Translations under genes and position numbers: made by a program | Shown: positions 3,071 to 13,111 of the stretch, in pieces | Layout of the letters: each line of letters begins with the position of its first letter | Numbering within the stretch: the first letter of the stretch is position 1 | Notes under the pieces: model-generated | What the model was told of the DNA's origin: nothing | Seen by the model: the letters and a program-made list of their open reading frames with translations, nothing else | The model's database searches: none | Virus record (IMG/VR): IMGVR_UViG_3300043436_000502 | Location: 1-29,985 of that record | DNA from: a virus | Strand: one strand, 5' to 3' | Length of the DNA: 29,985 bases

Positions 3071-3408
3071 CCGACAAATTTACACAAACCGATGTCGCCA
3101 GCATTGCAGAGATAACGGCGTTTTTATACGCTGGCGCGTTGCAGCATCCCACATTAGGTGCCAATGGCAAAGGCATGTGCTTGGATAGTTGGTCCGGGCA
3201 TACGGGGTTTGTAGGCCATTGCACAAACTATGCAATTGCAATCGATGCATGGTTGACCACGCGAACCGATGATTTCCCCGGCGTTTTGGCTTATGAGTTG
3301 ATTGAACCAATGGGGGAATGGTTGATCGAAAAATTCCACTACCCGCCACCCGTGGCCGATGTCTTGGAATATTTCAAAGTTGAGTTTATCGCATGGATTG
3401 AAAGGTAA
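3067..3408 (+). CDS. Unknown early protein (113 aa)
   Basis: ATG overlaps the stop of the GP88-like gene (ATGA at 3067-3070), so the two are likely translated together. The 113-residue product is soluble and aromatic-rich. It has DSWSGHTGFVGHCTNYAIAI in the middle and a C-terminal helical part ending FKVEFIAWIER. No signal peptide, membrane segment or motif that I recognise is present. Codon use (many A/T-ending codons) matches its operon neighbours rather than the late genes. No function is assigned. Confidence 0.65.
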   Translation: MTDKFTQTDVASIAEITAFLYAGALQHPTLGANGKGMCLDSWSGHTGFVGHCTNYAIAIDAWLTTRTDDFPGVLAYELIEPMGEWLIEKFHYPPPVADVLEYFKVEFIAWIER

Positions 3409-3411
3409 ACC

Positions 3412-3624
3412 ATGACCGAATCACCAATTCCCGGTTACGTTCACAATCCAAACCCTGACCGATATCCAACCCGGTCAGACTGGCCGAAACCGGGCACAAA
3501 GGGCACTCATAGGGGCCGCCCGGTCACACTCATGACCGTCTGGCACCAGTACCGCGCACTATTCCAAACCGGGCCATATTCCACAATGAATGCCAATTTA
3601 CAGGACTTTATCCCATGCGAGTGA
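3412..3624 (+). CDS. Unknown small protein (70 aa)
   Basis: Begins three bases after the preceding stop, with AAAGG seven bases before the ATG. The N-terminal third is unusually rich in Pro, Asn, Asp and basic residues (PIPGYVHNPNPDRYPTRSDW), followed by a short helical part VTLMTVWHQYRALF. It could be an extended, partner-dependent small phage protein. Its 3-prime end overlaps the next gene by 10 bases. Function unknown. Confidence 0.55.
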   Translation: MTESPIPGYVHNPNPDRYPTRSDWPKPGTKGTHRGRPVTLMTVWHQYRALFQTGPYSTMNANLQDFIPCE

Positions 3625-3758
3625 AAGAATTTTGGCAATGGCTAATCGATTTAGCCGATGCCACCGATGATGCACCGATAGATCTACCCAGTGCAGAACA
3701 TGCCTTTTTAATGGGGCGCACCGTGGCCCAATATTTGGAGACCTTGAACCATGCATAA
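3615..3758 (+). CDS. Unknown small acidic protein (47 aa)
   Basis: Starts at ATG 3615 inside the end of the previous gene. The product is MRVKEFWQWLIDLADATDD followed by an acidic linker and a C-terminal helix with FLMGRTVAQYLETL. It is amphipathic helical and acidic, the kind of small protein that often inhibits or bridges host enzymes in phage early regions, but that is only a general association. It overlaps both neighbours (10 and 8 bases), so it belongs to a compact, translationally coupled string. Confidence 0.5.
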   Translation: MRVKEFWQWLIDLADATDDAPIDLPSAEHAFLMGRTVAQYLETLNHA

Positions 3759-3855
3759 CACCCCAGAACAAAACGAAGCATTCCGGCGCGCATGGGATGC
3801 GACAAATGCGCGATGGAAGGCTCAACAAAATCAACCCGTGAAAGATTCAAAATGA
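3751..3855 (+). CDS. Unknown microprotein (34 aa)
   Basis: ATG at 3751 overlaps the end of the 47-residue gene. The 34-residue product is a single predicted helix rich in Asn, Gln, Ala, Arg and Trp (core EAFRRAWDATNARWKAQQ). Its stop overlaps the ATG of the next gene (ATGA). No family is recognised. I list it as a real gene because it fills exactly the gap between two overlapping neighbours in the same operon. Confidence 0.45.
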   Translation: MHNTPEQNEAFRRAWDATNARWKAQQNQPVKDSK

Positions 3856-5372: not shown

Positions 5373-7847
5373 TTACTCCAGCAATTCAGCCCCATGCACT
5401 CGGGGCTTTTCTTTTCTGGACAGCCTGTATATCTCGTCCAGTTGGCGCTGCTTCGCATCGATCACGGCCTTACGGTGATCCTTGAACTGCACGGCCAGTG
5501 CAGGGTTGATGGCCCACTGGGCATGGTGCTGGTTCTCTTTGCTGCCGTCATCCATACGCATGACCCATCGGCCCTGCTCCAGTGGGTACATGGCCCCATA
5601 GATCATTTGATCCTGCTGCCACACGTTGACCTTCTCGATCTGACGCCGGGCTGACCGTTTGATCTCGGCTAGGGTGATGGTGGACTCGTCAGCGTGTTGG
5701 ATGATGTAGTCACGCAGCCAGGTGTCGAAGTTGGACGCACCGGACAACTCGGACAGGGCATACCGATAGGCCGGGACAACGTAGGACTGCACCATCTCAA
5801 TCACCCGCTTGGCAATGTCTGCCGACACCGTGATGCTAAAGGGCGACTCGATCAGGTGGAACATGAGCATGATGCGACCAGTCAAGCCCTCGATCTTGCC
5901 AAAGGCGGTCATGAAGGTATCGTCAGACTGGAGTAAGCGCTCGTCATTGCGTTTGCTGTCGTACCAGTCCTGGAACTCTTGAAACAGGACTTTGGCCTCG
6001 GGGGACAACTGGTAGGTCATCGCAGGCAGGGCAAACACAATCCGCAGGGTCTGCTCCCATTGGTCTTTGTTGAGCAGGTAGTCGGGGATCTCCACGGGCT
6101 TGCGGGTCAGGTCACCGTTCAGGATGCAGGGCACGAAACGCTGCACCAGACCATCGGCCGACAGGTTGTGCAGGTTTTCCCTAAAAACTCGGGGTTGGAT
6201 GTTGCCGTAGATTGAAACGGCCAGGTTCTCAGCGTAGATCGACCCACTACCTACCCGATCCATCTCATAAGGGGACGACTCGTAAGCCTTGACCCATGCC
6301 GAGCGATCCTCGCCGCTGGCCTTGTCGGTGAGCTTCCTCACCCAACTGTTCATCTCGTCCAAGGCGCACAGCAGCCCACGGGGACGATCAGCAGCCAGTC
6401 GCACCAGCTTCTGGCTGGTCACGTCATCCACGGTGATGCGAAGGGGCACGGGCTGGGGTGGCAGGTCGTGAACCACCGGAGCCTGATCGCCTGAGAGCAT
6501 CGCCTCGGGGCTGGCTGAGAACTCCAAGAATGCCTTTTTGCTTGAGGCATACATGGCCTCTTGACCCTCCCACTCCAGCAGCGCCTTGCCGTGGCGTGGG
6601 CGATCCTCGTGCTCTAGGTGCTTCAGCGGGGCCAGCATGGGCGCACTGCCCGGTGTCTTCTTGTCGGCCGGGGCACCGATGGTCATCAGCCACAGCACCG
6701 GGGGCACCTTAAAGTCTTTGATGAGTTCGAGTCGGGTACGAGCATCGACCACACCGCAGACAGCGGCCAGCCCTGCGAACAGGGGCACCAGCGGGTCACA
6801 GCCCACTGTTTGGCCGATCTCGCCAGCACGTCTAGCGATCACAGCAGGCCACAGGGATACATCCATCATCGGTGGCCGTGGCCGCAGGTCAACGATGACC
6901 GACTTTGGGTCGGCGGGAGCCTCCACAGCGGAGAACATGGCCGTGATGTCGGGCAGCGGCCGGGTCCAGCCATACTGCTTGGCGATGTGGAACAGGCTGC
7001 CCAGCTTGACGGCCGTGGCCTTGTCATTCTTGAAGCTGGTCCATTGGGCGATAATGTCTTTCTCGCCAGGGTACTTGGCCGAGGGCAAGGACCAGTCATT
7101 CCACAGCGTCAGTGCCGGGTCGAGTTGGTCTGTTTGTTCGCCAGCCCACTTGAGCGCCATGCCCACCGTGACCCACTCCTCTCGGGAGCAGTTGGGGCTG
7201 ATGGCCTCAAGGGCTGTTCGTATGTCTTCCCATGAGGCATCGACAGCATCGCCCGTGCCGATGGTGCGCTCCTTGTCCTGCGCCAGCAGGGTCTGCCACA
7301 GGTCGAGCAGGGGCTGAGGCACAGTAGGCAGTCGCGTCCAGTGACCCTTGCCTGCCCAGCGGTAGGGCTGGAGCGTGGCCGGGTGGATCGATGGGGGCAT
7401 GACATCTTGCACCGTCAGGCCGTTGGCCGTGGCGCAGCGTAGCTCGTAGGCCGTGACCCCGTTGATGAGGATCTTTTTGGATGGGAGCGCCAGGCCAAAG
7501 GGCATCTGGTACAGCAGCTTGCCGTGACCAGCCCTGCCCGAGTCCACGATGACAGCATCGTTGGCATCATACAACTCTTGCAGATTGATGCCATGCTGCT
7601 TGAGCGCCGTGGTAGTAGTGTCCCACTCGTCGATGTCCAAGGCCATCGTGCCGCTGTAGGCATGGGCCAGCCCGATGCCGTAGCCACTGGGCAGATCGGC
7701 CTGAGATTTGAGGGCGTTGTTCTTGACGTTCCAGCCAGGTGTGCGTGGGCCTTTGGTGCCTGCCGGGATGGGCACCAGTGACCAGCCGTGCCGGATGTAC
7801 GCATCGATGGATGCCGGGTGCGCTTGCACTGTAGGGATTGCTGTCAT
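5373..7847 (-). CDS. Primase-polymerase with DUF3987 helicase-like domain
   Basis: An 824-residue replication protein with three parts. Residues about 10-180 form an archaeo-eukaryotic primase-polymerase domain: the metal-binding pair D71/D73 in ALDIDEW, the SGRAGHGK motif with H108, the YELR strand with E135, and PPSIHP at 151-156. Residues about 205-292 fit a PriCT-2 domain. Residues about 330-720 match DUF3987, a helicase-like ATPase. Its P-loop position reads GAPADKKTP, which is degenerate, and LLCALDEMNSW is the likely Walker B. It probably primes and unwinds phage DNA. It is on the opposite strand from the polymerase and helicase genes. The ATG at 7847 has no ribosome site of its own and overlaps the stop of a leader ORF, so translation is probably coupled. 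Confidence 0.88.
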   Translation of the reverse strand: MTAIPTVQAHPASIDAYIRHGWSLVPIPAGTKGPRTPGWNVKNNALKSQADLPSGYGIGLAHAYSGTMALDIDEWDTTTTALKQHGINLQELYDANDAVIVDSGRAGHGKLLYQMPFGLALPSKKILINGVTAYELRCATANGLTVQDVMPPSIHPATLQPYRWAGKGHWTRLPTVPQPLLDLWQTLLAQDKERTIGTGDAVDASWEDIRTALEAISPNCSREEWVTVGMALKWAGEQTDQLDPALTLWNDWSLPSAKYPGEKDIIAQWTSFKNDKATAVKLGSLFHIAKQYGWTRPLPDITAMFSAVEAPADPKSVIVDLRPRPPMMDVSLWPAVIARRAGEIGQTVGCDPLVPLFAGLAAVCGVVDARTRLELIKDFKVPPVLWLMTIGAPADKKTPGSAPMLAPLKHLEHEDRPRHGKALLEWEGQEAMYASSKKAFLEFSASPEAMLSGDQAPVVHDLPPQPVPLRITVDDVTSQKLVRLAADRPRGLLCALDEMNSWVRKLTDKASGEDRSAWVKAYESSPYEMDRVGSGSIYAENLAVSIYGNIQPRVFRENLHNLSADGLVQRFVPCILNGDLTRKPVEIPDYLLNKDQWEQTLRIVFALPAMTYQLSPEAKVLFQEFQDWYDSKRNDERLLQSDDTFMTAFGKIEGLTGRIMLMFHLIESPFSITVSADIAKRVIEMVQSYVVPAYRYALSELSGASNFDTWLRDYIIQHADESTITLAEIKRSARRQIEKVNVWQQDQMIYGAMYPLEQGRWVMRMDDGSKENQHHAQWAINPALAVQFKDHRKAVIDAKQRQLDEIYRLSRKEKPRVHGAELLE

Positions 7848-7891
7848 AAAATGGGTTCGCTGGTGAATGCAGTTGCCAGTGTGTACTTCAT
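7844..7891 (-). CDS. 15-residue leader ORF coupled to primase-polymerase
   Basis: On the minus strand, AAGGAG (7903-7898) lies six bases before an ATG at 7891 that opens MKYTLATAFTSEPIL and stops at TGA 7846-7844. The stop overlaps the primase-polymerase ATG (ATGA). The strong ribosome site belongs to the leader and not to the large gene, which lacks one. Ribosomes finishing the leader can restart on primase-polymerase. The peptide itself may have no function. Confidence 0.65.
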   Translation of the reverse strand: MKYTLATAFTSEPIL

Positions 7892-7906
7892 GGATTTCTC
7901 CTTTTC

Positions 7907-7941
7907 AAGCCCCGGTCTAACCACCGGGGCTTTTCTTTTTT
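7907..7941 (+). terminator. Strong hairpin: plus-strand terminator and leader structure of the minus transcript
   Basis: A perfect ten-base-pair stem AAGCCCCGGT / ACCGGGGCTT (7907-7916 with 7923-7932), loop CTAACC, then TTTTCTTTTTT on the plus strand. As a plus-strand terminator it would stop rightward transcripts running antisense through primase-polymerase before they reach the 8019 operon. In the minus transcript the same hairpin sits three bases before the leader ribosome site and may protect the 5-prime end. Confidence 0.85.
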
Positions 7942-7945
7942 GCAA

Positions 7946-8018
7946 AAATAATTTCAAAACCGTTGCACAATCGTATCACAGTCTGCTACACTTGCGTCAA
8001 CGGTCAAGGAAATTATTT
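7946..8018. promoter_or_regulatory. Palindromic divergent promoter/operator
   Basis: AAATAATTTC plus CCGTTG (7946-7955, 7960-7965) is mirrored exactly by CAACGG plus GAAATTATTT (7998-8003, 8009-8018). The inner sequence is also partly symmetric about position 7981-7982. Plus-strand promoter candidate: TTGCAC (7963-7968), 18 bases, TACACT (7987-7992), serving the gene at 8019. Minus-strand candidate: TTGACG (8000-7995), 19 bases, TACGAT (7975-7970), serving the leader and primase-polymerase. The two promoters overlap and use equivalent positions of the two arms, so one regulator could control both directions. The ribbon-helix-helix protein encoded at 8019 is the natural candidate. Confidence 0.7.
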
Positions 8019-8219
8019 ATGACAACCCCACCAAAATCAGCGTTCATGACTGTCCGAGTGACAGACAAGACGCGCACCAAGTTTCATGAGAAAGCACGAA
8101 AGATCGGAACCCCGAGCGAAGTGCATCGTGAAATCGTCGAGGCGTTCGTTGAAGACCGCCTCACAATTCAACCCCCTGTAACCCGTAATCTGGAGAAACT
8201 TTATGTCACTGGAAAATAA
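8019..8219 (+). CDS. Ribbon-helix-helix (Arc/MetJ-like) regulator candidate
   Basis: A 66-residue protein, ATG at 8019 with AAGGA upstream. Residues about 9-45 read FMTVRVTDKTRTKFHEKARK then GTPSEVHREIVEAFVE: a beta strand with alternating residues, helix A, a G-x-P/S turn and helix B, as in ribbon-helix-helix repressors. The strand would contact DNA as a dimer. It is the first gene after the palindromic divergent promoter, so autoregulation and control of primase-polymerase are likely but unproven. Its 3-prime end overlaps the next gene by 17 bases. Confidence 0.75.
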   Translation: MTTPPKSAFMTVRVTDKTRTKFHEKARKIGTPSEVHREIVEAFVEDRLTIQPPVTRNLEKLYVTGK

Positions 8220-8640
8220 AATCGAAGCCCTGACTGCTGCTGTGGTCGCCCTGACTGCCAAGCTGGAGTCGAGCAATGTAGCACCCGTTGCACCTGTTGC
8301 GCCAACACCCGCCCCTGTGGTACAAGCTGCCCCGGTGGTGACCGCCCCTTTGGTTCAAGCTGCCCCTGTGGCGGCACCTGTTATGCCTGCACCCCCTGCC
8401 TTCGTGGCTCCAGCAGTGAACCCATCGCCTACTGCAACAGCGACTACTACAACGAGTAACGCACCGTTCACTGACGGCAAGGGTCTGATCGACTACGTCA
8501 TGGGCGCATACAAAGCACTCGGCGCTGCCAAGGGCGCACAGATTCAGAACGTGCTGGTGGGTCTGGGTTACCAGAACATCAACGATGTGAAGCCCGAGCA
8601 CTACGGTCAGTTGTTCGCTGGTGTGGAAGCACTCAAGTGA
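8203..8640 (+). CDS. Coiled-coil / Ala-Pro linker / C-terminal domain protein
   Basis: A 145-residue protein with three parts: a short N-terminal helix with heptad spacing (MSLENKIEALTAAVVALTAK), an Ala/Pro/Val-rich low-complexity linker at about residues 27-80, and a compact C-terminal domain starting GKGLIDYVMGAYKALG and ending FAGVEALK. TGGAG precedes the ATG. This architecture, a self-association helix and a flexible tether to a small globular domain, is common next to phage replication nucleases and ssDNA-binding proteins. A role as a tethering or loading factor in the replisome is inference only. The stop overlaps the GTG start of the next gene. Confidence 0.6.
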   Translation: MSLENKIEALTAAVVALTAKLESSNVAPVAPVAPTPAPVVQAAPVVTAPLVQAAPVAAPVMPAPPAFVAPAVNPSPTATATTTTSNAPFTDGKGLIDYVMGAYKALGAAKGAQIQNVLVGLGYQNINDVKPEHYGQLFAGVEALK

Positions 8641-10016
8641 GCACCCACGCCCAACTGTCTCCATCGAAACGTAGCCGTTGGGCCTTGTGCCCTGGCTCGA
8701 TTCGAGAGGAGGCCAAGTACCCCGAGCAAGACAGCGGCCCCGCTGCCAAGGACGGGACACACTCGCACACGCTGCTTGAGATGTGCGTTAAGTCAGGCAG
8801 GTCTGCTCACTCGTATGTCGGTCAACTGATTACTGATCACGACGGCTCGTTCCACGTGGACGTTGACCGTGCAGTCCGTGTGCAGACTGCTCTTCACTAC
8901 ATCGAAAAACGAATAGAGGAAGAGTCCACACCGTTCTTCATCCCCAAGGTGATCAGCGAGACTCGTGTTGACCCCGAGCACCTGCTCGGCCGTGACGACT
9001 TGTCGGGCACTGTGGACGTGCAGATTCAAGGGCATGAAATCCTTGAGTTGATCGACTACAAAGACGGCATGGGAATTGTTAGCGCCGAAGGCAACTTGCA
9101 GCTTGAACAGTACGCCTACGGTGTCCTAGCTGGCTACAAGTTGCCCGTTAACGGTGCCTACCCGTTCAAGACTGTTCGCATGACGATCATCCAGCCCAAG
9201 CTGGCCCTGCGTGGCATGGCACCCATCACATCGCATAATGTGTCGGTGCATGACCTGCTGGCGAACATGGGTACAATCATCACGCAAGCTGCTGCAACTG
9301 ATAAATCAGATGCACCACTTGTACCGGGTGAAAGTCAATGTAAATTCTGCCGTGCCAAGGGTTCCTGCTCTGCGCTGGCAAGTAACGTAATGAAGGAGGT
9401 CGGGATCATGTTCCAGCCTGTCGTAACGCAAACACTCGATGTCGCACAGCAAAGTGCCGACAAAGATCCATCCACGATGGACGATGCCCAGATCGCTCAG
9501 ATCATGGAAGCTGCTCCCCTGATGCGCCAGTTGCTCGAAGGTGTCGAAGCCGAAGCCCTGCGCCGCCTGCAAGCTGGTCAAACCATCCCCGGCATCAAGC
9601 TGGTCAATGGTCGTGGCTCTCGTGCATGGGCGCTGCCTGAAGCTGAGATGGCCGAGAAGCTGGTCAAGATGGGCATCCCCAAGACTGCGATATATGAAAC
9701 CAAACTCGTGTCTCCCGCCAAGGCTGAGAAGCTGACTTGGGAAAAGCGCGATGGCACCAAGGTCACACTGACCGAGCGCCAACTCAAACGCATGGACCAG
9801 GAGTACGTCAGCAAGCTGGCTGGCAAGCTCACCGTGGCCCCTGAATCTGACAGCCGACCCGCTGTCATCACCAATGCTGCGCCGCTGTTTAGCGCAGTAG
9901 ATGAAGGTCGTGTAGCTGGCGATTTCACGACCAAAATCGAATACACCGTGAACAACGGTGTTGTCCAAGTTCAGTCTGTTGAACAGACTGAAGTCCTGCC
10001 CTCGTGGCTTTCGTAA
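8637..10016 (+). CDS. DUF2800 family, Cas4/RecB-like nuclease
   Basis: A 459-residue protein starting at GTG 8637, with GGAAG upstream. The N-terminus has SRWALCPGS with C18, then GTHSHTLLE (H44, E48). The nuclease core GTVDVQIQG (D127) leads to ELIDYKDG (D140-x-K142), the PD-(D/E)XK signature, followed by NLQLEQYAYG. Three further cysteines C235-x2-C238-x5-C244, together with C18, would hold a 4Fe-4S cluster as in Cas4 and AddB-type nucleases. DUF2800 genes typically sit beside the DUF2815/Enc34 ssDNA-binding protein and phage polymerase genes, as here. Likely role: single-strand exonuclease in phage replication or recombination. The last 200 residues have no assigned domain. Confidence 0.88.
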   Translation: MSTHAQLSPSKRSRWALCPGSIREEAKYPEQDSGPAAKDGTHSHTLLEMCVKSGRSAHSYVGQLITDHDGSFHVDVDRAVRVQTALHYIEKRIEEESTPFFIPKVISETRVDPEHLLGRDDLSGTVDVQIQGHEILELIDYKDGMGIVSAEGNLQLEQYAYGVLAGYKLPVNGAYPFKTVRMTIIQPKLALRGMAPITSHNVSVHDLLANMGTIITQAAATDKSDAPLVPGESQCKFCRAKGSCSALASNVMKEVGIMFQPVVTQTLDVAQQSADKDPSTMDDAQIAQIMEAAPLMRQLLEGVEAEALRRLQAGQTIPGIKLVNGRGSRAWALPEAEMAEKLVKMGIPKTAIYETKLVSPAKAEKLTWEKRDGTKVTLTERQLKRMDQEYVSKLAGKLTVAPESDSRPAVITNAAPLFSAVDEGRVAGDFTTKIEYTVNNGVVQVQSVEQTEVLPSWLS

Positions 10017-10034
10017 ATCAATGGAGTAACCGTA

Positions 10035-10718
10035 ATGTCCGACATCATTTTTCTGTCCAATGTCCGTTTGTCTTTTCCCCACCTCGCAGAACCCCAAAAG
10101 CAGGTGAACGAGGCCACTGGTGCCACTCGCATCAGTTACAACGCCGAGTTCTTGATGCCGCAGGATCACCCTGGCTTCGCTCAATTCATGGCACGTTATG
10201 GTGCTATTGCGTTGCAGAAGTGGAAAGAGCACGCTCAAGCCGTTATGCAAATGATTCAGAACGACCGCAAGACCCGCTGCTTTGGTCGTGGTGAGGAAAA
10301 GATTAGCCGCAAAACCATGCAGCCATACGATGGTTATGCTGGCAACATCTACATCACTGCTGGCCGCGACACTGCACCGCAAATGATCCAAGCTGACGGC
10401 TCACCTGTTGACCCAGCCAACACGATGGCCTATCAACAGTTGGCCCGTAAGATGTACGGTGGTTGCCGAGTCAACGCTGCTATCAAGCCTTGGCCGCAGG
10501 ACAACAAGGTTGGCCGTGGCATCCGCTGCGACCTGATCGCTGTCCAGTTCGCCGGTGATGACACACCGTTTGGCGAAGGCGCTACCGATGCGTCTGGTTT
10601 GTTTGGTGCTGTGGCTGGTGGTGCTCCTGCTGGCTTTGGTGGTGCCAATCCTTACAACGCCATGCCTGCTGCACCGTTTGCACAGCCAGGTCTGCCATCC
10701 TTCTTGGGCGGTCAGTAA
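10035..10718 (+). CDS. Enc34-type ssDNA-binding protein (DUF2815)
   Basis: A 227-residue protein. It starts MSDIIFLSNVRLSFPHLAEP, the characteristic opening of the DUF2815 family. It contains YNAEFLM, KTRCFGRGEEK, YDGYAGNIYITA, MYGGCRVNAAI and GIRCDLIAVQF, all in the expected OB-fold order. The founding characterised member is the ssDNA-binding protein of Enterobacter phage Enc34. The C-terminus (from about residue 180) is a flexible Gly/Ala/Pro-rich tail ending FLGGQ. It is not acidic as in typical bacterial SSB. The ATG at 10035 follows GGAG. It coats single strands during replication and sits directly after the nuclease gene. Confidence 0.9.
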   Translation: MSDIIFLSNVRLSFPHLAEPQKQVNEATGATRISYNAEFLMPQDHPGFAQFMARYGAIALQKWKEHAQAVMQMIQNDRKTRCFGRGEEKISRKTMQPYDGYAGNIYITAGRDTAPQMIQADGSPVDPANTMAYQQLARKMYGGCRVNAAIKPWPQDNKVGRGIRCDLIAVQFAGDDTPFGEGATDASGLFGAVAGGAPAGFGGANPYNAMPAAPFAQPGLPSFLGGQ

Positions 10719-10725
10719 TCGAATC

Positions 10726-10797
10726 GGGGCTGAAAGCGGATGCTGTGGTGACGCATGGCCCATAGCCATGAAAGTTGCAGTGCAGCGAGTAAGCCCC
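10726..10797 (+). ncRNA. Structured intergenic RNA element (unclassified)
   Basis: The 100-base gap between the ssDNA-binding gene and the first HNH gene folds into an outer stem GGGGCT / AGCCCC (10726-10731 with 10792-10797) enclosing a hairpin CATGGC-CCATA-GCCATG (10754-10759 with 10765-10770). It could be an untranslated-region structure that controls the endonuclease, a processing site, or a mobile-element remnant. Both stems are perfect, but with no homologues to compare this stays a prediction. Confidence 0.4.
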
Positions 10798-10818
10798 ACC
10801 TTGTAAGGAGTAAGAGTA

Positions 10819-11265
10819 ATGCCAAAAGGTTTTAAGCACGGTTTAAGATACACACCGGAGTACACGGTGTGGATTAGTATGCGCCAGCGTTGTCTCAATC
10901 CACACGGACATGACGCGAAATATTATGATGGCATCGCGTTATGTGATGAATGGAATGACCCTGTGCAGTTTGTTGCAGACATGGGCAAACGTCCCAGCAT
11001 GCGTCATCAAATCGACCGAATCGACAATACCAAAGGTTACTCTAAGGACAATTGCAGATGGGTTGAAAAAGCTCCGCAAATGCGGAACACCAGAGCCTCA
11101 AAATGGTGGTTTATTTACGGCGTGAGATATGACAGTCTGAGTGAGGCTGCTGCTGCGGTAGGCGTTACCATTAGTCGTGTCAAAGCATGGTGCGAAGGGC
11201 GCACCGATGGTGGCTACACATACCCTCCGAAACCAAATTGCTGGTCGGAGAAAAAGTATGTCTGA
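10819..11265 (+). CDS. HNH homing endonuclease, free-standing (first of two)
   Basis: A 148-residue protein, ATG at 10819 with AAGGAG ten bases upstream. It begins with the phage HNH pattern YTVWISMRQRCLNP, YYDGIALCDEW, FVADMGKRP, then HQIDRIDNTKGYSKDNCRW (H63, D66, N70, N78), and ends with a helix-turn-helix of the NUMOD1 kind (YDSLSEAAAAVGVTISRVKA). Such enzymes nick or cut a neighbouring site and spread their own gene by repair. The gene is more AT-rich than its neighbours. Its last eight bases overlap the polymerase start and it carries the polymerase ribosome site. The active site is degenerate compared with classic HNH but matches this subfamily. Confidence 0.85.
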   Translation: MPKGFKHGLRYTPEYTVWISMRQRCLNPHGHDAKYYDGIALCDEWNDPVQFVADMGKRPSMRHQIDRIDNTKGYSKDNCRWVEKAPQMRNTRASKWWFIYGVRYDSLSEAAAAVGVTISRVKAWCEGRTDGGYTYPPKPNCWSEKKYV

Positions 11266-13111
11266 CACATGGGTCTACGATATTGAAACATACGTCAATG
11301 TCTTCACAGTCGCATTTGAACACGCCGATGTGCCTATCAAACTCATGTTTGAAATCAGCGACCAGCGCAACGACTCCAAAGAGATCATTGAGTTTTTACG
11401 CTATCTCTCGGATACGAGCGCCCGGATGGTCGGGTTCAACAACTTGGGGTTCGACTACCCCGTCATCCATACGCTGATGCAGATGGGCCACAGCGATGCC
11501 CAGACGCTGTACAACAAGGCGATGGCAATCATCACGGCGCAAGACGGTGACGAAAGCCGTTGGATGCACCAGGTCAAGCCATCAGACCGCCACGTCGAGC
11601 AGATCGACCTGTTCAAGATTCACCACTTTGACAACAAGGCTCGGTCCACCAGTCTCAAGATGCTGGAGTTCAACATGCGCTCCGACAGCATCGAGGACTT
11701 GCCGTTCAAGGTGGGCACCACACTCACACCGGGCGAGATCGTCAAGCTCAAGCAGTACAACGCACACGATGTGTCGCAGACCAAGGCGTTCCTGCACAAG
11801 TCGATGGGCATGATCCGGTTCCGCGAAGAGTTGACTCAGAAGTACAACCGGGACTTCATGAACCACAACGACACCAAGATCGGCAAAGACTACTTTGCCA
11901 TGAGGCTGGAAGAGGCCGGTGTCGCCCTGTACGACTTCGGCCCCAAAGGTCGCACACCTCGGCAGACCAAGCGCCCGGTGATCCATCTCAAGGACGCCAT
12001 ACTGCCGTGGATCACGTTCCACTCGCCCGAGTTCAACCGGGTGCTGGGCTGGCTCAAGGATCAGTCAATCACCGAAACCAAGGGAGTCTTCAATGACCTT
12101 ACTGCAGGTGTCAACGGTTTTACTTTTGTGTTTGGTCTGGGTGGCATTCATGGAAGTATCGAGTCGGAAGTCATCGAGTCGGATGACCAACATGTCATTG
12201 TTGATCTTGATGTCACTTCTTACTATCCCAATCTGGCTATCACTAACGGTTTTTATCCTGAGCATCTTGGCAAAGAGTTTGTAACTATTTACAAGAACCT
12301 GTTCGAGCAGCGCAAGTCGTACCCCAAGAAGTCAGCCGAGTCAGCCATGCTAAAGCTGGCGCTCAACGGCGTCTACGGTGACAGCAACAACCAGTTCTCT
12401 GTGTTCTACGACCCGCTGTTCACCATGAGCATCACGCTCAACGGCCAACTGCTGCTGTGTGTGCTGGCCGAGGGGCTGCTGGAGATCGACGGGCTGCGCT
12501 TGATCCAAGTGAACACTGACGGCTTGACCGTGCGGGTGCCCCGTGCCAACAAGTGGCTGGTGGACACCGCTGCCGCAGCATGGCAGCAGCGCACCGGATT
12601 GAACCTTGAAGAAGCCGTCTACAAGGCCATGATGATCCGCGATGTGAACAACTACATCGGCGTGTTTGAGAACGGCAGCACCAAGCGCAAGGGTGCCTAC
12701 GAGCACGACATGGAGTGGCACCAGAACCACGGTGGTCTAGTGATTGCCAAGGTGGCCGAGAAGGTGTTGGTCGAGGGTGCGCCCATCCGCGAGACTGTGG
12801 AGCAGTGGCCCGAGATCATGGACTTCATGCTGCGTACCAAAGTGCCGCGCTCCAGCTATCTGGCAATCGAGCGCGATGGTGTGACCTCGCAGCTTCAGAA
12901 CATCACGCGCTACTACATTGCCGAGGGTGGTGGGCACCTGTTCAAGTGGATGCCGCCCCTCAAGACCAAGCCGGGTGTGTGGCGCAAGATTGGTGTGGAG
13001 TCTGGGTGGGGTGTTCAGCCGTGCAATGACATTCGTGACGCTGGCAAGCTGCCAGTGGATTTTGATTATTACGTCAGAGAAGTGGAGAAACTATGTCTGG
13101 GCCTAGCATGA
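11258..13111 (+). CDS. Family B DNA polymerase with 3'-5' exonuclease
   Basis: A 617-residue replicative polymerase; the ATG at 11258 with GGAG upstream is the true start, the frame being open further upstream inside the HNH gene. Exonuclease motif I is VYDIETY (D8, E10) and motif II VGFNNLGFDYP near residue 60. Polymerase motif A is DVTSYYPN (D318), motif B KLALNGVYG (K366-G374), motif C VNTDG (D421) in place of the usual DTD, followed by a KGAYE (KxY-like) motif near residue 470. It is short for family B, with no obvious terminal-protein insertions. Codon use changes in two places: the first roughly 150 bases and about 12075-12300 around motif A are richer in A/T-ending codons. Confidence 0.88.
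   Translation: MSDTWVYDIETYVNVFTVAFEHADVPIKLMFEISDQRNDSKEIIEFLRYLSDTSARMVGFNNLGFDYPVIHTLMQMGHSDAQTLYNKAMAIITAQDGDESRWMHQVKPSDRHVEQIDLFKIHHFDNKARSTSLKMLEFNMRSDSIEDLPFKVGTTLTPGEIVKLKQYNAHDVSQTKAFLHKSMGMIRFREELTQKYNRDFMNHNDTKIGKDYFAMRLEEAGVALYDFGPKGRTPRQTKRPVIHLKDAILPWITFHSPEFNRVLGWLKDQSITETKGVFNDLTAGVNGFTFVFGLGGIHGSIESEVIESDDQHVIVDLDVTSYYPNLAITNGFYPEHLGKEFVTIYKNLFEQRKSYPKKSAESAMLKLALNGVYGDSNNQFSVFYDPLFTMSITLNGQLLLCVLAEGLLEIDGLRLIQVNTDGLTVRVPRANKWLVDTAAAAWQQRTGLNLEEAVYKAMMIRDVNNYIGVFENGSTKRKGAYEHDMEWHQNHGGLVIAKVAEKVLVEGAPIRETVEQWPEIMDFMLRTKVPRSSYLAIERDGVTSQLQNITRYYIAEGGGHLFKWMPPLKTKPGVWRKIGVESGWGVQPCNDIRDAGKLPVDFDYYVREVEKLCLGLA

Follow-up and report, generated by a model that had tools for sequence, protein, structure and literature searches.

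Dose-sensing control by antisense RNA is textbook biology for plasmids. The closest described systems are the following. In plasmid R1, CopA blocks translation of Tap, RepA is coupled to Tap, and CopB represses the repA promoter (PMC5717011). In pMV158, CopG and RNAII act on repB; RNAII is 48 nt long with an 8-bp stem and a 6-nt loop, and inhibits translation of the initiator (PMC4485353). The REx-C modules of Pseudomonas plasmids are exchangeable units with a putative rep-coupled leader peptide and a putative antisense RNA, in which the arms of the terminator stem covary and some members lack the leader; deleting the leader in frame left replication ability apparently unchanged (PMC5304414).

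Cis-acting antisense RNAs are also described in phages, among them P22 sar and lambda OOP (PMC12197685) and P1 C4 (PMC8198154), whose targets, in these partial accounts, are an antirepressor or cII. Elsewhere, an antisense RNA on dnaA exists in Bacillus subtilis (PMC12112137, in part), and extrachromosomal mycobacterial prophages show RNA-based replication (PMC7157519, in part). Our literature search, which was of partial coverage, found no antisense RNA with a coupled leader on a phage primase.

Here we describe a phage locus at which a primase-polymerase (prim-pol) gene and the divergent gene of a small candidate regulator appear to share two overlapping promoters, and at which a predicted antisense RNA lies opposite a short leader ORF running into the start of prim-pol. 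The arrangement resembles copB/copA/tap/repA of R1 (IncFII), as covered in its source, in its small putative regulator, its predicted antisense RNA on a leader region and a replication gene predicted to be coupled to a short leader ORF. In R1, however, the target is not a phage primase-polymerase with a DUF3987 region as it is here, and the present regulator is divergent and shares one overlapping promoter region with its target. The combination of a small putative repressor with a short antisense RNA likewise recalls copG/RNAII/repB, but the pMV158 antisense RNA is placed by the available text in the copG-repB intergenic region of one operon, whereas regulator and prim-pol are divergent here and a coupled leader is predicted. 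REx-C is close in its leader peptide, antisense RNA and exchangeability, but belongs to plasmids with unrelated Rep families. Unlike sar, OOP and C4, the RNA predicted here would act on a replication enzyme, through a coupled leader.

The locus and its relatives

The window, by which we mean the whole stretch of DNA analysed, is a freshwater phage record of 29,985 bases. The sole named phage record similar to it across the locus is that of phage DSL-LC05 (OR003940), with 77% DNA identity over 7402-9400; a new family has been proposed for that phage by its authors, with a host predicted among the Enterobacterales (PMC10611076). The prim-pol matches the Pfam families Prim-Pol (E 2.9e-14), PriCT_2 (E 3.4e-15) and DUF3987 (E 1.9e-44), and a tblastn search with it against plasmids and phages returned beyond OR003940 only distant matches, below 60% identity and none covering 80%. 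Early genes on the + strand, reaching to about 5220, face prim-pol, and the candidate regulator gene at 8019 and an operon of replication genes are encoded in the other direction (Table 1). The Pro/Ala-rich protein of that operon has no Pfam or PHROG match; it follows the regulator in the window and, by appearance, likewise in the distant relative L060.

From viral contigs we collected loci with sequences related to prim-pol and to the 8019 protein. The 8019 gene is divergent to prim-pol in all 137 loci that have both genes, and the two lie less than 600 bases apart in 133; these are 137 loci rather than 137 contigs, because the two fetched locus sets overlap and some contigs appear twice. The 133 loci with an intergenic stretch below 600 bases yield 91 distinct sequences and 74 distinct 82-base cores, on which the comparisons of the promoter region rest.

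Table 1. Observed and predicted features of the locus, in window coordinates
Feature	Position	Strand	Details
Primase-polymerase (prim-pol)	5373-7847	-	824 aa; Prim-Pol, PriCT_2 and DUF3987 regions
Predicted antisense promoter	7824-7852	+	across the prim-pol start; -35 TTGCAC 7824-7829, 17 nt, -10 TAAAAT 7847-7852
Leader ORF	7844-7891	-	15 codons (MKYTLATAFTSEPIL); stop TGA overlaps the prim-pol ATG (TTATGA)
Predicted antisense RNA	7859-7942	+	about 84 nt; start estimated
5' hairpin of the predicted antisense RNA	7859-7880	+	8 pairs, loop AUGCAG
Shine-Dalgarno sequence of the leader ORF	7898-7903	-	AAGGAG; within the stretch covered by the predicted antisense RNA
Intrinsic terminator	7907-7942	+	10-pair stem 7907-7932, T tail TTCTTTTTTG
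Near-palindrome, candidate operator	7946-8018		two superimposed divergent promoters
Left AT-rich arm	7946-7955		UP-element-like for the rightward promoter
Predicted rightward promoter	7963-7992	+	-35 TTGCAC 7963-7968; extended -10 TGCTACACT 7984-7992 (TG 7984-7985, -10 TACACT 7987-7992); start expected near 7999
Predicted leftward promoter	7970-8000	-	-35 TTGACG 8000-7995; extended -10 TGATACGAT 7978-7970 (TG 7978-7977, -10 TACGAT 7975-7970); start expected near 7963
Right AT-rich arm	8009-8018		resembles an UP element less closely; doubles as the spacer that separates the ribosome site of the 8019 gene from its start
8019 protein	8019-8219	+	66 aa; probable ribbon-helix-helix regulator
Rightward operon context (8019 gene excluded)	8203-13111	+	replication genes
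Pro/Ala-rich protein	8203-8640	+	
PD-(D/E)XK exonuclease	8637-10016	+	
ssDNA-binding protein	10035-10718	+	
DNA polymerase	11177-13111	+	

Two predicted promoters on a near-palindrome

As the initial annotation had reported, the left arm AAATAATTTC is mirrored exactly by the right arm GAAATTATTT, and CCGTTG (7960-7965) by CAACGG (7998-8003), across a 32-base centre that is itself partly symmetric (GTATCAC...TGCTAC). The whole is a near-palindrome with one-nucleotide slips, because arm and hexamer are separated by AAAA on one side and by TCAAG, one base longer, on the other. Aligned to itself, the 73-mer scores 29, a value reached by none of 5000 dinucleotide shuffles (mean -6.6, largest 18), and the inner 44-mer scores 17, likewise reached by none of 5000. 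Among 9971 windows of 73 bases taken at steps of 3 across the whole record, one scores 29 or more; it begins at 1399, in a separate repeat array. The inner dyad pattern has no second occurrence in the window or in OR003940. An omega-like operator array was considered and rejected, the window having one WATCACW heptad at the palindrome and 8 others away from it.

Two overlapping promoters very likely sit on this element, in mirrored register: their -35, TG and -10 positions fall at equivalent places in the two arms, again in agreement with the initial annotation. Scored with an E. coli sigma70 matrix, which may not suit the host, the leftward promoter ranks 4th of 59,898 positions counted over both strands, the antisense promoter treated below 12th and the rightward promoter 33rd. 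The last rank was obtained with the -35 shifted by one base (TGCACA, 17 nt); in the registers of Table 1 the spacers are 18 nt rightward and 19 nt leftward, not 17. A stricter, simple consensus scan reported none of the three promoters. Conservation points to both directions: a -10 with T1, A2 and T6 is found on both strands in 74 of 74 cores, preceded by TGn in 66 rightward and 64 leftward, counts that are favoured because the best hexamer within a range was picked. The left arm reaches a mean best match to an UP-element consensus of 10.05 out of 11 over the first 40 bases of the 74 cores, against 7.82 after shuffling, and the right arm 8.30 out of 11 against 6.94.

The pair is like the bidirectional promoters of bacteria, in which one symmetric segment engages RNA polymerase both ways and competition is possible. 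In their most frequent form, as far as the available portions of the sources describe it, the starts lie 18 bp apart around one shared -10 (PMC12825309; PMC10268837); here, in contrast, there are two separate -10 elements, and the predicted starts lie about 36 bp apart. Strong activation one way can repress the other in bidirectional promoters (PMC12825309, in part), and this would fit the overlapping pair at the palindrome.

The initial annotation also took the pair for a single promoter that had been duplicated and inverted, and this stands in part. The half sites of relatives remain recognisable by a common frame, GTTG..CAA..GTA.CA, in a comparison that leaves aside seven cores (L028 and L036, unparsed; L117, L124, L012, L046 and L030, mis-anchored by the parser), and in L048 the left half site is the very 21-mer that forms the right half site of the window, on the other strand, its near relative L049 having a window-like left half. 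One half site has been copied or swapped in L048; inversion, template switching and convergence are all compatible with the data. Half sites seem copied or inverted between sides across the L048/L049/L050 group (12 cores).

The symmetry might, on the other hand, have arisen as a mere by-product, if two promoters happened to require the same elements in mirrored positions, with competition between polymerases as the only control and no repressor involved. The conserved bases of the half sites coincide with the -35 and extended -10 elements, and in relatives like L002 the outer GTTGCAC has become GTTTGAC, which keeps the -35 (TTGACA) and loses the mirrored site. Symmetry is also less constant than the promoters themselves: exact arms are absent from most relatives, and the self-alignment z exceeds 2 in 24 and 3 in 15 of the 74 cores (mononucleotide shuffles), the weak symmetry of many relatives speaking for a by-product. 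Speaking for an operator, most cores keep C at -10 position 3 on both sides, though TATAAT would suit a promoter better, and the divergent regulator gene stays within 600 bases in nearly all loci with both genes. We regard the by-product explanation as possible, and on balance lean against it in favour of a candidate operator carrying two promoters.

Just downstream of the leftward promoter there appears to be a hot spot for insertions. In 19 distinct long intergenic sequences, L008, L042, L047, L050, L057, L099, L101 and L147 among them, 110-440 extra bases of differing kinds lie in most cases on the stretch from the terminator hairpin to the left palindrome arm. These 19 sequences have a minus-strand ORF of 41-126 codons starting 55-122 bases from the regulator side, as would be expected of a leftward promoter driving any insert at this place, several of the automatic starts being without a ribosome site. 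They lend weak support to the leftward promoter, because in 6 of the 19 (L101, L131, L134, L136, L137 and L138) the longest + strand ORF exceeds the minus-strand one.

The candidate regulator

Ribbon-helix-helix (RHH) proteins, CopG among them, are dimers with an N-terminal strand. The 8019 protein is a probable RHH regulator, a weakly supported assignment drawn largely from its sequence pattern. In hhalign comparisons it aligns in register over its full length with four known RHH proteins, with scores of 6.5-13.5 where 12 shuffles score 0.2-6.1, and with probabilities of at most 1.6%. The family has no Pfam match above cut-off; among 65 members there are weak matches to HicB (19 of 65, best 0.013) and to a NikA-like family (17 of 65, best 0.0064), none of them from the window protein, and an Arc-like family is also weakly matched by relatives. 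A sequence search of the PDB gave two chance matches, NCBIfam unrelated weak matches only, and Pfam searches with the small proteins of two distant relatives no RHH family.

Single-chain structure models show two helices of lengths that fit an RHH protein, without the N-terminal strand. The first model, with the window protein first, was poor (pLDDT 62) and had no PDB match. The second, with L012 as query, reached pLDDT 77; its PDB matches are not significant (best E 3), its comparison with 69 chains gave Z of at most 2.6 (best, a rice TCP domain) with RHH proteins absent among the matches listed, and the best viral match (E 0.0044) is to a phage protein that is uncharacterized. In L060 and L061, whose prim-pol is 49% identical, the neighbourhood of prim-pol still encodes a small protein of this sort, to which, in L060, Pfam assigns no RHH family.

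Whether the 8019 protein regulates the divergent promoters is, in our judgement, an evenly balanced matter. The proposal of the initial annotation, that one dimeric regulator balances both operons, is plausible for such a putative factor. Residue 11 of the regulator, by eye, is Thr or Ser in most relatives and Val in the group with reversed-looking cores, L049 being the exception with Val11 and a window-like core; this covariation of residue 11 with core type is confounded by descent. By comparison with Arc, residue 11 may be a DNA-contact position.

A predicted antisense RNA and a coupled leader ORF

Prim-pol does not lie directly 3' of the leftward promoter. Between them are a hairpin, a leader ORF and a predicted antisense RNA, all absent from the initial annotation. 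The leader ORF has its own Shine-Dalgarno sequence and ends in an overlap with the start of prim-pol, which is without an evident ribosome site of its own. On the other strand, a promoter predicted within the start of prim-pol and a G+C-rich stem followed by a T run, as in an intrinsic terminator, would delimit an RNA complementary to most of the leader ORF and to its start and ribosome site. We predict the antisense RNA and the coupled leader with good confidence.

These elements are conserved as a unit. Among 95 distinct 5' regions (window included), 83 combine promoter, overlapping leader and terminator, 10 have none of the three, and two (L108 and L128) are mixed. Presence was scored by TTG, TANAAT, a T-tailed stem (by regular expression) and a leader of 10-16 codons with overlapping TGA; a locus was excluded if its prim-pol match begins after residue 1 or if its flanks are too short, by which criterion L056 and L074 drop out of counts and tree alike. 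L128 keeps its leader, but its -10 reads TAATGT. In L108 (about 3343-3833), judged by eye, an extra ORF lies between leader and prim-pol, the leader stop overlaps the ATG of this ORF, and an antisense promoter lies at its start (TTGACA-16-TAGAAT); the extra ORF is HNH-like by eye.

The -35 of the antisense promoter lies within the coding sequence, its TTG being supplied by the codon for Gln8. All 80 full-length genes examined from the leader group, L108 and L128 included, use CAA there. Overall, CAA makes up 1052 of 3112 Gln codons (34%), and at most 70% in the 16 other conserved Gln columns. In L147, which has two extra codons, the TTG still stands at 17 nt. Residue 8 is Thr in the nine leaderless 5' regions with an alignable N-terminus, and L060 has no leader or antisense signals. 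The module is dispensable, because nine distinct relatives of prim-pol are without the whole of it. A quick prim-pol tree that leaves out the first 60 residues calls for two changes of the leaderless label (8 full-length rows), both forced by starred branches; the true gain or loss events of the module could be fewer, through recombination of the 5' end.

The RNA itself is also supported by its fold. Folded as a + strand RNA, the predicted antisense RNA of the window has z -4.10, a stability that none of 200 shuffles reaches; the 120-nt 5' region of the mRNA has z -1.91. The 5' hairpin was followed in 35 sequences, chosen from 75 RNAs for a clean 5' stem. All 280 cells of its alignment are paired, and 16 are changed on both sides, against 6.3 after shuffling (0 of 500 as high) and 0-4 in a control with sliding alignment; counted by pairs, two are changed on both sides, which 29 of 500 shuffles reach, and the pair types are matched by 321 of 500. 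A different or weaker 5' stem is found in L014, L048-L050 and L102, and a shorter one in L025, L028 and L101. One pair of the hairpin is U-G in 35 of 35, a pairing unavailable to the mRNA strand. In all 75 RNAs the first 24 bases fold more stably as + strand than as - strand, and a T tail (at least 7 T in 10 nt) follows on the + strand in 74 of 75 and on the - strand in none; L128 is outside these 75, its terminator not having been parsed.

The + strand hairpins could instead be a mere terminator against read-through from the early operon into the divergent promoters, with no antisense start near 7859. The early + strand genes do face prim-pol and the T tail is restricted to the + strand, both of which such a terminator would explain. 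It needs, however, no invariant CAA at -35 distance, no TANAAT and no covarying 5' hairpin, and all three come and go with the leader ORF. We therefore consider a terminator without an antisense RNA unlikely, and retain the predicted antisense RNA.

A covariance model of the antisense RNA matches 37 of 60 chosen sources at E of at most 2e-5, namely the sources that bear a leader, together with L108 and the new locus L162. The remaining 23 give weak matches at most (E of at least 0.075), and similar second matches occur within leader-bearing loci too. A contig scan for leader, -10 and -35, which is no census of the module, gave at least 117 new loci, at least 71 of them encoding prim-pol among the matches listed; the remaining 46 of these 117 were taken as chance or unrelated, and in six of them (L157, L159, L164, L170, L190 and L194) the covariance model found no match. 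Rfam at its gathering score finds nothing in the window. A search of 7780-8060 by E-value gave 14 weak matches, all below gathering (best E 0.00097) and mostly to small-RNA and leader families, none of the 14 being an R1 or plasmid copy-control RNA. Two traits of R1-type control are present here as sequence signals, an antisense promoter and terminator opposite a leader and a leader stop overlapping the start of the replication gene, and a third, homology to the R1 control RNA or RepA families, was not found. Because no sequence kinship was found, we liken the module to R1 rather than class it as a member.

A possible control circuit

Taken together, these elements suggest a circuit in two layers. 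Two sigma70-type promoters superimposed on opposite strands would form a compact divergent control region; being superimposed, they would let RNA polymerase serve one direction at a time. Rightward output would supply the 8019 regulator and the replication operon, and leftward output prim-pol. The symmetric half sites are probably bound by the 8019 protein, which would thereby repress one promoter or both, including the one that drives its own gene. The leftward mRNA would provide the second layer, with a leader ORF served by a good ribosome site and prim-pol presumably translated by coupling from the leader stop. The third promoter, inside the start of prim-pol, would give a short + strand RNA of two hairpins ending at the terminator. 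Pairing of this RNA with the ribosome site and start of the leader would block leader translation and, through it, prim-pol synthesis. The dose of antisense RNA would track genome copy number, and would therefore feed back negatively on replication, in the manner of plasmid R1.

The sequence signals and their joint conservation are observed, and from them we infer transcription, pairing, coupling, repressor binding and feedback. The account as a whole, with the two overlapping promoters and the antisense RNA on a coupled leader at its core, seems to us probable. We see an even chance that this clade of environmental phages carries a plasmid-style copy-number circuit on prim-pol, with overlapping promoters under a small autoregulator and an antisense RNA gating a coupled leader peptide, in which replication slows as genomes accumulate and the module is gained or lost as a unit.

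A primase-polymerase of this kind may act near its own gene. The region could accordingly be a replication origin, with the palindrome, the AT-rich arms and the nearness of prim-pol all in the service of initiation instead of regulation, and an AT-rich intergenic stretch between divergent replication genes would suit one. The GC skew of OR003940, however, makes no clean turn here, the conserved features match promoters, and the repeat array at 1250-1790 offers an alternative origin or operator; we find an origin at this place very unlikely, and keep to the regulatory reading. Equally improbable is a mainly trans-acting + strand RNA, with mRNAs of the host or other mRNAs of the phage as its targets in place of the leader: its small-RNA build, conserved loop GCAG and terminator would suit such a role, but the RNA is missing wherever the leader and its overlap are missing.

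Were the circuit real, the question would arise why a phage restrains its replication, whether for timing, for burst size or for a plasmid-like stage. Since the module is present in some natural relatives and missing from others, the circuit can be tested directly. The invariant codon and the strand-specific wobble pairs, for their part, would make an antisense gene recognisable by sequence alone.

A separate array at 1250-1790 of the window, in the intergenic stretch that precedes the early operon, contains near-palindromic sites of the type TGACCCGCTGGGTCA, in seven 23-nt copies together with inverted ones. It contains the strongest self-palindrome on the 73-base grid, and its sites are candidate repressor operators or a candidate replication origin. 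OR003940 has a like array (TGACCCAGTGGGT) at L155:13445-13981.
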